Assembly (NCBI GenBank): GCA_937876775.1
Contig: CALEFA010000063.1
Coordinates: 62,001 to 126,000 of the forward strand
DNA: 64,000 bases
From: an uncultured Rhodobiaceae bacterium
GTDB taxonomy: Bacteria > Pseudomonadota > Alphaproteobacteria > RS24
Reading direction: 5' to 3'
Part shown: piece after piece, positions 24,718-31,135 of the stretch
Numbering within the stretch: the first letter of the stretch is position 1
How the letters are laid out: each line of letters opens with the position of its first letter
The notes under the pieces: generated by a model
What the model saw: only the letters and a program-made list of their open reading frames with translations
Database searches by the model: none
Told to the model about the DNA's origin: nothing
Program-made: the position numbers and the translations under genes

Positions 24718-25473
24718 CTAAAAATCATCGAGATCGCCAATATCTGGCAATGCGTCTAAATTGGTTTTGCCATTATCAATTTCGCTTTGGCGGTTTTGCC
24801 GGTAAAGGCTTCTGACGCTGGCATAATAATCAACCGAACTGCGCTCAATCTCATCAATAATACCGACATTTGTCGCCCGCGAGTCAATGCCAGCAACGGC
24901 GAAAACCAGAACGGGGCCAGAAAGACCATCGTCAAGGATATAGGTCACGGGGTTGAAAACAGTGTCGACCGTTGTGCCAAAAAGATCGCGCGGCGGGGCA
25001 GGGCCCAATATAGGTAAATACAGATAAGGCCCTTCACTGACGCCGTAGACAGCAAGCGTTTGGCCGAAGTCTTCATCATGTGAGGCAAAGCCAAGGCTTG
25101 TGGCGGGGTCGAAAAACCCAAACAGGCCGAGCGTCGTGTTAATGCCGAGGCGCGCTCCCGTGGTGCCAGCGCGAGACCATTCGCCTTGCAGGACGTCATT
25201 CGCCAATGTGACCGGCGACGTCAAATTGTCGATAAATCGACGCACAGACATACGCACTGGCTCGGGGACGTATAAGTAACCTTTAGCGACCGGCTCGAGC
25301 GCATATTCGTCAAGCGTCATATTAAAGGTGAACATTTTACGGTTGAAATTTTCATAGGGGTCATTGGCGTCTTGATACTGGCTCGCCTCATTGGGTGCCG
25401 CACCGCCGCAAGCAGTCAGAGTCAAACTCAAAACAATGGGGAGAATTTGAAAACGTTTTCGGAATAAGAACAT
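24718..25473 (-). CDS. mlaA: MlaA (VacJ) outer-membrane lipoprotein
   Basis: Removes mislocalised phospholipids from the outer leaflet of the outer membrane. 251 aa with a lipoprotein signal; the lipobox LTAC places the lipidated cysteine at C22. The family signature DPYENFNRKMFTFN occurs near residue 40, and the conserved region GLFGFFDPATSLGF with EDFGQTLAVYGVSEGPYLYLP follows. First gene of an mlaA-mlaC pair, divergent from the SahR-like regulator across 140 bp. Confidence 0.93.
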   Translation of the reverse strand: MFLFRKRFQILPIVLSLTLTACGGAAPNEASQYQDANDPYENFNRKMFTFNMTLDEYALEPVAKGYLYVPEPVRMSVRRFIDNLTSPVTLANDVLQGEWSRAGTTGARLGINTTLGLFGFFDPATSLGFASHDEDFGQTLAVYGVSEGPYLYLPILGPAPPRDLFGTTVDTVFNPVTYILDDGLSGPVLVFAVAGIDSRATNVGIIDEIERSSVDYYASVRSLYRQNRQSEIDNGKTNLDALPDIGDLDDF

Positions 25474-25576: not shown

Positions 25577-25606
25577 TTGACACATAAAGATATGTTTATG
25601 TATAAA
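25577..25606 (+). promoter_or_regulatory. Promoter and inverted-repeat operator of the SahR-like gene
   Basis: TTGACA (25577-25582) and TATAAA (25601-25606) are separated by 18 bp. A perfect inverted repeat ACATAAA (25582-25588) / TTTATGT (25595-25601) with a 6-bp centre fills the spacer and touches both hexamers. The expected transcript start falls at or next to the ATG at 25614, so the mRNA should be leaderless. A repressor bound here would block polymerase directly; autoregulation by the ArsR-type protein is the natural inference. Confidence 0.8.
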
Positions 25607-25613
25607 TCAGCGC

Positions 25614-26561
25614 ATGAAAACCTTACTTTCAGCTCTTCGCGCGGCAGGCGAACCCACGCGGCTTAGAATTCTGGCCATTTTGGCGCGTGGTGAATTGACG
25701 GTATCTGAGCTGACCCAAGTTCTATTGCAGAGCCAGCCACGTATTTCGCGGCATTTGAAACTCTTGGCCGAGGCCAAATTAGTGCAGCGCCACCCTGAGG
25801 GCAGCTGGGTGTTTTATCGCCTCAACGACAGTCAAGATATCGCTGGCCTGTTGCAGCAGCTCATTACCCATTTACCAGCCGATGATTTAATTCTCCAGCG
25901 CGATTATGAGCGTTTTGAGCATGTTTGCGAAGAACGCGCGGCGCGCGCCCGCCACTATTTCGCCGCCAATGCCGCAGCATGGGATGATTTACGTACCCAT
26001 CATATTCCTGAGACCGAAGTGGAAGGAAAAATCGCCACGTCCATCGGCGAGCGGCAGATTGGCCTTTTGGTCGACCTTGGCACGGGCACGGGCCGCATGT
26101 TGGAAATTTTCGCGCCACGTTGCGCGCGCGCCATTGGTTTTGATATCAGCCCCGAAATGCTGACTATTGCGCGCAGTAAGTTGGACGGCGCGGGGCTTGA
26201 TCATTGCCAAGTGCGGCAGGGAGATTGTGCCAATGTGCCATTGGAAGACGGTGTCGCAGACATTGTCATCTTGCACCAAGTATTGCATTTCCTTGATGAT
26301 CCCACTCAGGCGATTGCTGAGGCGGCGCGTATTCTGGCGCCCGGTGGCAGTGTGTTAATTGCCGATTTCGGGCCGCATGATATGGAAAGCCTGCGCGAGC
26401 AGCACGCGCACCGGCGCTTGGGGTTCAGCTCAGAGGAAATCCAGTCAATGCTGGCGCAATCTGGCTTGAGCTATTTTGCTGGAGAAACCTTGACGTCAAA
26501 TAATCATGATTTACCGGTCGCTCTGTGGCGCGCCGACAAACCGGCCGCGACTGTGGAATAG
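25614..26561 (+). CDS. ArsR-type regulator fused to a SAM-dependent methyltransferase domain (SahR-like)
   Basis: A 315-aa fusion. Residues 1-85 are an ArsR winged helix (EPTRLRILAIL, recognition helix QPRISRHLKLL). The metal-sensing cysteine motif of ArsR/SmtB is absent: that position reads ELTVSEL. Residues about 110-300 form a class I methyltransferase fold with motif I V153-D-L-G-T-G-T-G160 and LEDGVADIVILHQVLHF. Such proteins next to metF-metH match SahR, a repressor sensing S-adenosylhomocysteine in Proteobacteria; the methyltransferase fold probably serves as the ligand sensor. No ribosome-binding site precedes ATG 25614. metF follows after 9 bp. Confidence 0.82.
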   Translation: MKTLLSALRAAGEPTRLRILAILARGELTVSELTQVLLQSQPRISRHLKLLAEAKLVQRHPEGSWVFYRLNDSQDIAGLLQQLITHLPADDLILQRDYERFEHVCEERAARARHYFAANAAAWDDLRTHHIPETEVEGKIATSIGERQIGLLVDLGTGTGRMLEIFAPRCARAIGFDISPEMLTIARSKLDGAGLDHCQVRQGDCANVPLEDGVADIVILHQVLHFLDDPTQAIAEAARILAPGGSVLIADFGPHDMESLREQHAHRRLGFSSEEIQSMLAQSGLSYFAGETLTSNNHDLPVALWRADKPAATVE

Positions 26562-26570
26562 GAAAATAAA

Positions 26571-27410
26571 ATGACACGTATCTCCTTTGAATTTTTCCCA
26601 CCCAAAAGCGATCAGGCGGAAGAAAAACTTTGGCAGGCGATTGACCGTCTGGCGCCCCTTCAGCCGGATTTTGTTTCCGTCACTTATGGCGCTGGTGGCT
26701 CGACGCGCGACCGCACCCATGCCTGTGTGAAACGCTTGATTGAAGAAACCAATCTGCAACCGGCGGCGCATTTGACTTGCGTTGCCGCCAGTCGGGCCGA
26801 TGTGGACAGTGTGATTGATGAATATGCTGCCCTTGGCGTAAAACACATTGTCGCGCTGCGCGGTGATATGCCCGATATGGGCGCGTTCCAACCGCATGCT
26901 GATGGATATAGCGGCTCGGTTGATTTAGTGGCGGCGCTGGCCAAGCGCGGCGGTTTTGATATCACCGTCAGTGCCTATCCGGAAAAACACCCCGAGTCGG
27001 CGTCAATGGCCGCTGATATTGATTTGTTGAAAGCCAAAATAGACGCCGGGGCGACCCGCGCCATCACCCAATTTGCCTTTGATACGACGGCGCATTTGCG
27101 TTTTCGTGATGCATTGGCGGCGGCCAATATTACCATTCCGGTCATTCCGGGCATTATGCCAACGACCAATTTTGTTGGCGCCCAACGCATGGCCGAAGCC
27201 TGCGGTGCGTCGGTTCCCGATTGGTTGGCGGCGCATTATCATGGGTTAGAAAGTGACGCTGATACGCGCAAGCATATCGCCGCTTCTGTGGCGGTTGACC
27301 AATGCCGCAAACTCATCGAAGAAGACTTTGAGGATTTACATTTCTACACCTTAAATCAAGCCGATCTGACTTTTGCGGTATGCCGTATTCTGGGTCTTGG
27401 TAAACAGTAA
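26571..27410 (+). CDS. metF: Methylenetetrahydrofolate reductase
   Basis: FAD-dependent TIM-barrel enzyme that makes 5-methyl-THF for methionine synthesis. 279 aa. The catalytic Glu lies in SFEFFPPKS, and further family marks are [24 protein letters not shown] and ITQFAFD. It is the middle gene of the SahR-like-metF-metH unit, with 9-bp and 8-11-bp gaps, and so should be derepressed together with metH when methyl-cycle intermediates accumulate. Confidence 0.96.
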
Positions 27411-27421
27411 AGGCACGAATG

Positions 27422-30400
27422 ATGAGTTGGACACGCGAAACCAGATTGACCGCGCTCAAGGCGCAAATCGAGGCCCGTATTCTGCTCCTCGACGGCGCGA
27501 TGGGCACAATGATTCAGCGCCATCAGCTAGATGAAGCTGCTTATCGCGGCGCCCGATTTGATAATTATCACGCGGATGTGCAGGGCAATAATGACCTGCT
27601 GTCGCTGACCCAACCAGATATAATTCGCGACATTCATGCCGCCTATCTTGAGGCTGGCAGCGATATTGTTGAAACCAACACCTTCTCGTCGACGACCATT
27701 GCTCAGGCTGATTATGACATGCAAGATCTGGCCTATGAGCTGAATGTCGAAGGCGCCAGATTGGCGCGCCAAGCTTGCGATGCCATGGAAGCTGCTGACC
27801 CCAGCCGCCCGCGTTATGTGGCTGGCGCATTGGGCCCAACCAATCGGACAGCTTCCTTGTCACCAGAGGTCAATGATCCGGGCTATCGCAATGTCAATTA
27901 TGATGAATTGCGCGACGCTTATGCTGAGGCCACACGTGGCCTGATTGAGGGCGGCGCTGATATTATTTTGGTTGAAACCATTTTTGACACGCTGAATGCC
28001 AAAGCGGCGGTGCACGCTGTGCAAGACGTGTTTGATGAGACCGGTATTACTCTGCCGTTGATGATTTCCGGCACCATTACCGACCGCTCGGGCCGCACAT
28101 TGTCAGGGCAGACGACGGAGGCGTTTTGGAATTCCTTGCGTCACGTGAAGCCTTTTGCCGTCGGCTTAAACTGCGCCTTGGGTGCCGATGAAATGCGCCC
28201 CTATGCGGCTGAAATTGCACGTATTGCCGATACTCATGTCTGTATCTATCCGAACGCCGGTCTGCCCAATGAATTTGGTGAGTACGATCAATTGGCCGAT
28301 GAAATGGCGACCATTGTGGGCGAATTTGCGGAAGCTGGATTGGTCAATATTTTGGGCGGTTGCTGCGGCACAACGCCAGAACACATTGCCGCTATTGCCA
28401 AAGCGGCGGGACAAAACAAGCCGCGCGCCATCCCGCAAATCGAGGCCAAGATGCGCTTGTCGGGTCTGGAGCCATTTACGTTGAGCGACGACATTCGGTT
28501 TGTGAATGTTGGCGAGCGGACAAATGTTACCGGCTCGGCCAAATTCCGCAAATTAATCACCGAGGGTGATTTCGACAGCGCCCTCGATGTAGCCCGTCAA
28601 CAGGTTGAGAATGGCGCGCAAATTATTGACGTCAATATGGACGAGGGCATGCTCGATAGTGAGGGGGCGATGGTGCGATTCTTGAACCTCGCCGCCACAG
28701 AGCCAGATATCGCTCGCGTGCCGGTGATGATTGACAGTTCGAAATGGTCAATTATTGAAGCCGGTTTGAAATGCGTGCAAGGCAAGTCAGTGGTCAATTC
28801 AATTTCCCTGAAAGAGGGTGAAGAGGCGTTTATAGCTCAAGCGCGCGCCTGCCAACGCTATGGCGCGGCAGTGATTGTCATGGCCTTTGACGAGGACGGA
28901 CAGGCCGATACGGAAGAACGCAAGTTTGAAATCTGCAAACGCTCTTACGATATTTTGACCCAGCAAATTGGCTTCGCGCCGGAAGATATTATTTTCGACC
29001 CGAACGTATTTGCCGTCGCCACGGGCATTGAAGAGCACAATAATTATGCCGTCGATTTCATTAATGCGACGGGGCGTATTCGTCGCGAATTGCCGGGCGC
29101 GCATGTTTCTGGCGGCGTGTCCAATGTGTCGTTTTCTTTTCGCGGCAATGAGCCGGTTCGCGAAGCCATGCATTCGGCGTTTCTCTATCACGCCATTCAG
29201 CAGGGCATGGATATGGGTATCGTCAACGCCGGTCAGTTGACGATCTATGAAGATATTGAACCGACGTTGAAGCAAGCGGTAGAAGACGTGCTGTTGAACC
29301 GGCGCGATGATGCCACCGATCAGCTATTGAATGTGGCCGAGACCTATCGCGGCCAAAAGGGGCAGGAGCGCAAGGTTGATTTATCATGGCGTGAAGAACG
29401 GGTTGAGCAACGGCTAATGCACGCGCTTGTTAATGGCATTGGCGATTATATTGAGGAAGATACTGAGGCCGTGCGCCTAACCGTCGAGCGACCGCTTCAT
29501 GTCATTGAAGGGCCATTGATGGATGGCATGAACCGCGTCGGTGATTTATTCGGCGATGGTAAAATGTTCCTACCGCAAGTGGTCAAGTCAGCCCGCGTGA
29601 TGAAACGCGCCGTGGCCTATCTTGAGCCCTTTATGGAAGCAGAAAAAGCCAGCGCCCAAGCCGATGGCTTGGCAACGTCGTCGAGCAAAGGCAAAGTGCT
29701 GATGGCGACGGTGAAGGGTGATGTGCACGATATTGGTAAGAATATCGTCGGTGTGGTTTTGCAGTGCAATAATTATGATGTCATTGATATGGGCGTGATG
29801 GTGCCAGCCGCCGATATTATCGCCCGCGCCATTGAAGAAAAAGTCGACATTATTGGCCTGTCTGGGCTGATTACCCCTAGCCTTGATGAGATGTGCCATG
29901 TGGCGGCTGAAATGCAGCGTCAGGGGCTGGATATTCCGCTATTGATTGGCGGTGCGACGACTTCGAAAGTGCATACAGCGGTCAAAATCAATCCGAATTA
30001 TCAACGCGGCCAAACGGTTTATGTCACCGATGCCAGCCGCGCCGTCGGCGTTGCCTCACAATTATTGTCCGAGACACAGAGCGACGGCTATAAAGCCGAA
30101 ATCCTGTCCGATTATTTGGCCATGGCGGAAGCCCACGCGCGTAGTCGTGAGGGTGCTGTGCGCGTGCCCATTGCTAAGGCGCGGGACAATGGGTTTCAGC
30201 CGACGCAAGCGCACGTGCCGGTGAAGCCGAGTTTTCTCGGCACCAAAGTTTTTGACGATTATAATCTCGCTGAGCTGCGTGATTATATCGACTGGACACC
30301 TTTCTTCCAAAGCTGGGATTTGCATGGTCGCTATCCGGCGATTTTGACCGATAAAGTTGTCGGTGAAGCGGCCACAGCATTGTTTGAAGATGCACAAGCC

Positions 30401-31135
30401 ATGCTCGACAAGATGATTGCCGAAAAATGGCTGACCGCCAAAGCGGTGATTGGTTTTTGGCCAGCCGCGCGCGATGGCGATGATGTGGTGGTGTATGAAG
30501 ATGACACACGCAGCAGTGAACGCGCCCGCTTGCATACAATACGCCAGCAAATGGAACGCAAAAACCGGCGGGCGAATTTTGCCTTGGCCGATTTCATTGA
30601 GCCAATCGGTGGTGCCCATGATTATATCGGCGGTTTTGCCGTGACCTCGGGTCATGGTGAAGATGACGTGGCGAAAAAATTTGAGGCAGCCGGTGACGAC
30701 TATAGCTCAATTCTGTCGAAAGCGCTTGCTGACCGCTTGGCAGAGGCCTTCGCTGAGCGCATGCATCAGCGCGTGCGGACTGAGTTTTGGGGCTATGCCG
30801 CTCAGGAAAACCTCGACAATGAGCAATTGATTGAAGAAAAATATCAGGGCATTCGACCGGCGCCCGGCTATCCGGCGCAGCCTGACCACACAGAGAAACA
30901 AACTTTATTCGCGTTGCTAGATGCCACTGAGGCAGTCGATATTACGTTGACCGAGAGCTTTGCCATGTGGCCGGGGGCGGCGGTGTCGGGGCTATATTTC
31001 AGCCATCCGGAGAGCCAGTATTTTGGTGTCGGCAAAATCGCTCGTGATCAGGTCGAAGATTATGCGGCGCGTAAAAATATGTCGGTCGAAGAATGCGAAA
31101 AATGGTTGGCGCCGATTTTATCTTATAAGGCGTAG
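27422..31135 (+). CDS. metH: Cobalamin-dependent methionine synthase
   Basis: Transfers methyl from 5-methyl-THF via cobalamin to homocysteine. 1237 aa with all four modules in one chain: homocysteine domain (about 10-330, zinc ligands C251, C314, C315), pterin-binding domain (about 350-640; [14 protein letters not shown]), cobalamin domain (about 650-890; D-V-H769-D-I-G-K-N, the His being the lower axial ligand) and AdoMet reactivation domain (about 905-1220; [21 protein letters not shown]). Two tandem ATGs at 27419 and 27422 could start it; AAAGG precedes both. No cobalamin riboswitch is visible because only 8-11 bp separate it from metF. Confidence 0.97.

Follow-up and report, generated by a model that had tools for sequence, protein, structure and literature searches.

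The 64,000-nt stretch of DNA analysed here (the window) very probably carries an autoregulated SahR promoter of a sahR-metF-metH operon from a PS1-clade-like alphaproteobacterium, and this reading, including release of the repressor by S-adenosylhomocysteine (SAH) and a leaderless start of the first gene, is the best explanation of the locus as a whole. SahR is an already described regulon, of which the locus is a well supported further member, since all defining features that could be tested fit except a site at metK. The SahR-like identity, the autoregulation and the link to metF-metH proposed in an earlier note on this DNA are supported by orthologues, by a conserved operator and by the literature. 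The features are collected in Table 1.

Table 1. Positions of the promoter elements, genes and protein domains of the sahR-metF-metH operon in the window.
Feature	Position	Strand	Basis
-35 box TTGACA	25577..25582	+	direct reading; same register relative to the operator in 19/26 family genomes
SahR operator ACATAAAGATATGTTTATGT; family consensus ATATAAAGATATCTTTATAT	25582..25601	+	palindrome, conservation, second genomic copy at ahcY
-10 box TATAAA	25601..25606	+	direct reading; 18-bp spacer; spacing conserved
predicted transcription start, at or next to the A of AUG	25613..25614	+	inferred from the 6-8 nt distance between -10 box and ATG in 14 genomes and no Shine-Dalgarno sequence
sahR, ArsR-methyltransferase-fold fusion, 315 aa	25614..26561	+	Pfam HTH_5 1.2e-12, Methyltransf_11 5.5e-26; AlphaFold2
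ArsR winged-helix DNA-binding domain, residues 14-58	25653..25787	+	Pfam; SmtB/ArsR structure matches without metal cysteines
SAM/SAH-binding methyltransferase-fold domain, residues 153-249	26070..26360	+	Pfam; D154, G156, G158, D177, D204 invariant
metF, methylenetetrahydrofolate reductase, 9 bp after sahR	26571..27410	+	PF02219, TIGR00676
metH, cobalamin-dependent methionine synthase, 8 bp after metF	27419..31135	+	TIGR02082, PRK09490

Promoter and operator upstream of sahR

The promoter-operator region of the window reads gcTTGACAcataaagatatgtttatgTATAAAtcagcgcATG. Both boxes and the 18-bp spacer of the TTGACA-N18-TATAAA promoter described in the earlier note were recovered, and the -10 box, as claimed there, ends 7 nt before the ATG (counted between 25606 and 25614). 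The further claim, that an inverted repeat fills the spacer, held for the ACATAAA/TTTATGT arms, which are perfect over 7 bp within a 20-bp palindrome pairing at 9 of 10 positions, but the operator also reaches one base into each box, its first A doubling as the final base of the -35 box and its last T as the initial base of the -10 box. Within the 64 kb no second TTGACA-N15-19-TATAnn promoter was found, and no second ACATAAA-N6-TTTATGT-like site with up to three mismatches. A 20-mer palindrome of this quality appeared in 0.2% of the shuffles of the 63-nt region, and a chance palindrome was ruled out by the conservation across relatives. A riboswitch was also rejected, as the Rfam hits in the window were all tRNAs and the ahcY and metK loci gave none. 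On the other side of a 140-bp gap the gene mlaA (24718-25473, minus strand), followed by mlaC, is divergent from sahR, so that the sahR promoter region is common to an outer-membrane lipid transport gene.

The operator 20-mer was present upstream of the sahR orthologue in all 26 family members (≤3 mismatches), and most of its 20 columns carry 1-2 bits while the flanks mostly stay below 0.5 bits in these 26 genomes. Furthermore, a 20-bp palindrome before the own gene, which is a defining feature of SahR, is common to the alphaproteobacterial relatives: allowing five mismatches or fewer, it was found at 68 of 72 named loci, and the four loci without it (L108, L112, L141 and L161) also have no adjoining metF. 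The exact 20-mer of the window was found again in Aminobacter (L096). In Methyloceanibacter and a relative (L087, L088, L092) the nearest in-frame ATG lies within the operator (TTTATGT), and operator and start codon consequently overlap there.

The start of the sahR transcript

As judged from the sequence, the sahR mRNA is probably leaderless and starts at or next to the AUG. The distance between -10 box and ATG was 6-8 nt in 14 of the 15 genomes of the genera g1 and g5, and a Shine-Dalgarno (SD) sequence was generally absent from these short-gap genomes; a purine run in L008 would be outside the transcript, because it sits between the -10 box and the ATG. For comparison, genus g4 and G024 keep the same promoter-operator register with a gap of 16-17 nt and SD-like sequences, which are weaker in L021. 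The probable leaderlessness suggested in the earlier note thus gains comparative support, and its statement that no ribosome-binding site precedes sahR agrees with the anti-SD duplex energy of +0.8 kcal/mol, versus -4.2 kcal/mol for metF and -3.3 kcal/mol for metH. With ribosome-binding sites of their own, metF and metH are probably translated more strongly than sahR.

Leaderlessness is evidently not strictly fixed, since G024, in an otherwise leaderless genus, has a leader with AAGGAG; as G024 nests inside leaderless relatives in the protein tree, this leader was probably gained. Short operator-to-ATG gaps of 5-9 bp were also observed in Phenylobacterium, Hyphomonadaceae and Siculibacillus (L130, L136, L160, L113, L107), so leaderless sahR may have arisen repeatedly. 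The relatives offer a natural series in which the promoter-operator stays the same while the leader and its ribosome-binding site disappear or return. Leaderless transcripts are widespread among Alphaproteobacteria, 375 of them being reported for Caulobacter and 171 for Sinorhizobium (PMC4117421, PMC3616915); for this gene in Caulobacter, no leaderless data were found in the main texts of the papers.

With regulator and operator unchanged, the sahR mRNA might instead have a leader from another upstream promoter, with the likeness to TTGACA and TATAAA arising in part from the AT-richness of the operator. The operator itself does supply part of the box sequences, and the SD-like leaders of G024 and genus g4 lie downstream of the same promoter. 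We nevertheless regard a leader as unlikely, because the promoter to which TTGACA belongs has no second of its form in the 64 kb, the box keeps its register in 19 of the 26 family genomes, TTGAC falls outside the palindrome, and the 6-8 nt gap without SD recurs in 14 genomes; a leader begun further upstream would, moreover, still be without SD.

SahR protein, regulon and effector

AlphaFold2 gave a confident two-domain model of SahR (mean pLDDT 91.7), in accordance with the fusion to a methyltransferase fold predicted in the earlier note for the ORF 25614-26561. Among solved structures, the N-terminus comes closest to SmtB/ArsR repressors, and an NF033788 match above the cut-off indicates an ArsR-family winged helix there; the C-terminus, which has the class I fold, comes closest to small-molecule methyltransferases. 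The SAM/SAH-pocket residues listed in Table 1 are invariant in 45 relatives, and so are H221, H255 and R261. The metal-sensing cysteines of ArsR/SmtB (ELCVCDL type) are absent, SahR reading ELTVSEL at the recognition position, and no cysteine is conserved across the 45 family members, as expected from the earlier description of an ArsR domain without metal cysteines; metal sensing was ruled out on the absence of this motif. The arsenite-binding cysteines of ArsM/ArsRM were not found in SahR either.

The predicted adjacency to metF and metH was confirmed, both genes following sahR directly, and metF adjoins sahR in every family genome with enough sequence to see it. In the 1.72-Mb genome of the window, where sahR is the only ArsR-type gene, a relaxed pattern unveiled two strong operator sites, one at sahR and one whose end lies 58 nt upstream of the start codon of ahcY. 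The other matches, with at least one mismatch (for example C23:11782), were rejected as they fail the conserved core or lie in or near unrelated genes. The genome scan proposed in the earlier note thus came out positive for ahcY, with a strong copy upstream of the gene, and negative for metK, with none nearby in this genome. The absence at metK does not exclude membership in SahR, because metK is a core but not a universal member (PMC4239095), and the operators before ahcY and sahR-metF-metH cover the core genes ahcY, metF and metH. The ahcY gene is split over two contigs (G000:C16 and G000:C74), apparently by an assembly break.

The ahcY operator is kept in 22 of the 24 family genomes with readable upstream DNA and was present at 39 of the 73 alphaproteobacterial class loci inspected; in the incomplete genome G003 no sahR orthologue was found and the ahcY site is likewise missing. 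This assigns the methionine-cycle control of a small-genome (1.7 Mb) PS1-clade relative to the SahR regulon, in a form reduced to only two operons.

Upstream of ahcY (L003:1501-1580, corresponding to G000:C16:5543-5622) the gene's own operator is accompanied by the promoter TTGCGA-N17-TAAACA, and the leader contains AGGGG; the regulon thus combines a leadered gene with a probably leaderless one. The -35 box follows this operator closely, at a distance of 4-5 bp, and the promoter spacer measures 17 bp in almost all of the 22 family genomes. Among the 39 operator-bearing class loci two gap modes were observed, 0 bp (9 loci) and 4-6 bp (21 loci), in promoter calls that derive from a scoring made in this analysis and carry some selection bias. 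As the two modes, 0 and about 5 bp, correspond to opposite helical faces, simple occlusion of the -35 region is likelier at ahcY, graded occlusion is favoured over a specific contact, and a face-specific activator role is weakened. The two conserved geometries could conceivably serve two outputs, a tight shut-off at sahR-metF-metH and graded repression or a contact-dependent polymerase effect at ahcY, a proposal that we consider rather doubtful; if it were true, the SAH-destroying enzyme would be kept on at a basal level.

At low SAH, a SahR dimer would occupy the 20-bp palindrome inside the promoter and exclude RNA polymerase. Accumulating SAH would bind to the C-terminal domain and release SahR, whereupon metF and metH would be expressed to remake methionine and ahcY, whose product destroys SAH, would be de-repressed simultaneously via the operator just upstream of its -35 box. 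The regulator itself would be encoded by the leaderless first cistron; its translation would probably lag behind that of metF and metH and so hold the repressor at a low level. SAH is the likely effector by analogy, on the strength of literature on Desulfovibrio SahR and not on the fused form.

The fused fold could bind SAM as well as SAH, and a SAM response was suggested for the homologue SamR, whose regulon is without other SAM-cycle genes (PMC4239095), so that SAM might be the effector here, acting as a corepressor as in MetJ. This is improbable, because the regulon of the window includes ahcY, which fits SAH, whereas metK is absent from it, and because Desulfovibrio SahR was reported to be SAH-responsive, as cited in PMC4239095 and PMC8877191.

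A primarily enzymatic role, in which the protein would be an arsenite methyltransferase carrying a DNA-binding domain (ArsRM) and its operator would tie arsenic methylation to methionine supply, is very improbable. The idea draws on a Brevundimonas protein of the same architecture and gene order (arsRM-metF-HMT-metH), which shifted its own promoter, raised the arsenite tolerance of E. coli and was active with arsenite in an SAH-release assay (PMC10190100), and the SAM-pocket motifs are intact in the protein of the window. However, the region equivalent to Cys134 is without cysteine here, in line with the lack of any conserved cysteine among the 45 members, the genome has no ArsB and no other ArsR, the regulon comprises the methionine cycle only, and the Brevundimonas paper is without any mention of SahR (PMC10190100). 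From architecture and gene order, the Brevundimonas operon appears to be a SahR operon under another name; we suggest that the published ArsRM belongs to the SahR family, in which case its arsenite activity deserves a second look.

Comparison with known systems

The described SahR regulon combines a 20-bp palindrome with the core genes sahR, ahcY, metH, metF and metK (PMC4239095). The locus resembles its alphaproteobacterial form (PMC4239095; Ensifer aridi, PMC8877191) in the ArsR family, the 20-bp palindrome, the autoregulation and the targets ahcY and metF-metH, and sahR of Ensifer aridi, with 1023 bp, has the right size for the fused form (PMC8877191). The proposed autoregulation agrees with reporter data from Ensifer, where the sahR promoter was highest in a sahR deletion (PMC8877191). 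In contrast to that regulon, the prediction here covers only two operons, without metK, and has a leaderless first gene.

The ArsRM of Brevundimonas sp. M20 (PMC10190100) is likewise an ArsR-methyltransferase fusion with a conserved DLGTG-type motif, encoded as the first gene before metF and metH. It bound its own promoter in gel shifts (EMSA), and its target there is an AT-rich palindrome, comparable to the palindromic operator of the window. It differs from SahR of the window in being described as an arsenite methyltransferase, and its proposed arsenite-site cysteine is not conserved in the family. SamR of the Xanthomonadales, a distant SahR homologue, also adjoins metH, but has a 24-bp palindrome, a larger methionine-biosynthesis regulon and a gammaproteobacterial host (PMC4239095).

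The closest leaderless autoregulated precedent is acuR-acuI-dddL of Rhodobacter sphaeroides, in which translation of the first gene reaches about 7.5% of that of the second (PMC3017554). Both systems have a repressor as the autoregulated first gene, a promoter-overlapping inverted repeat with a 6-bp centre, no leader (predicted here) and downstream genes with their own SD. Unlike SahR of the window, acuR belongs to the TetR family, responds to acrylate and serves an unrelated pathway, and the leaderlessness of acuR-acuI-dddL was mapped experimentally.
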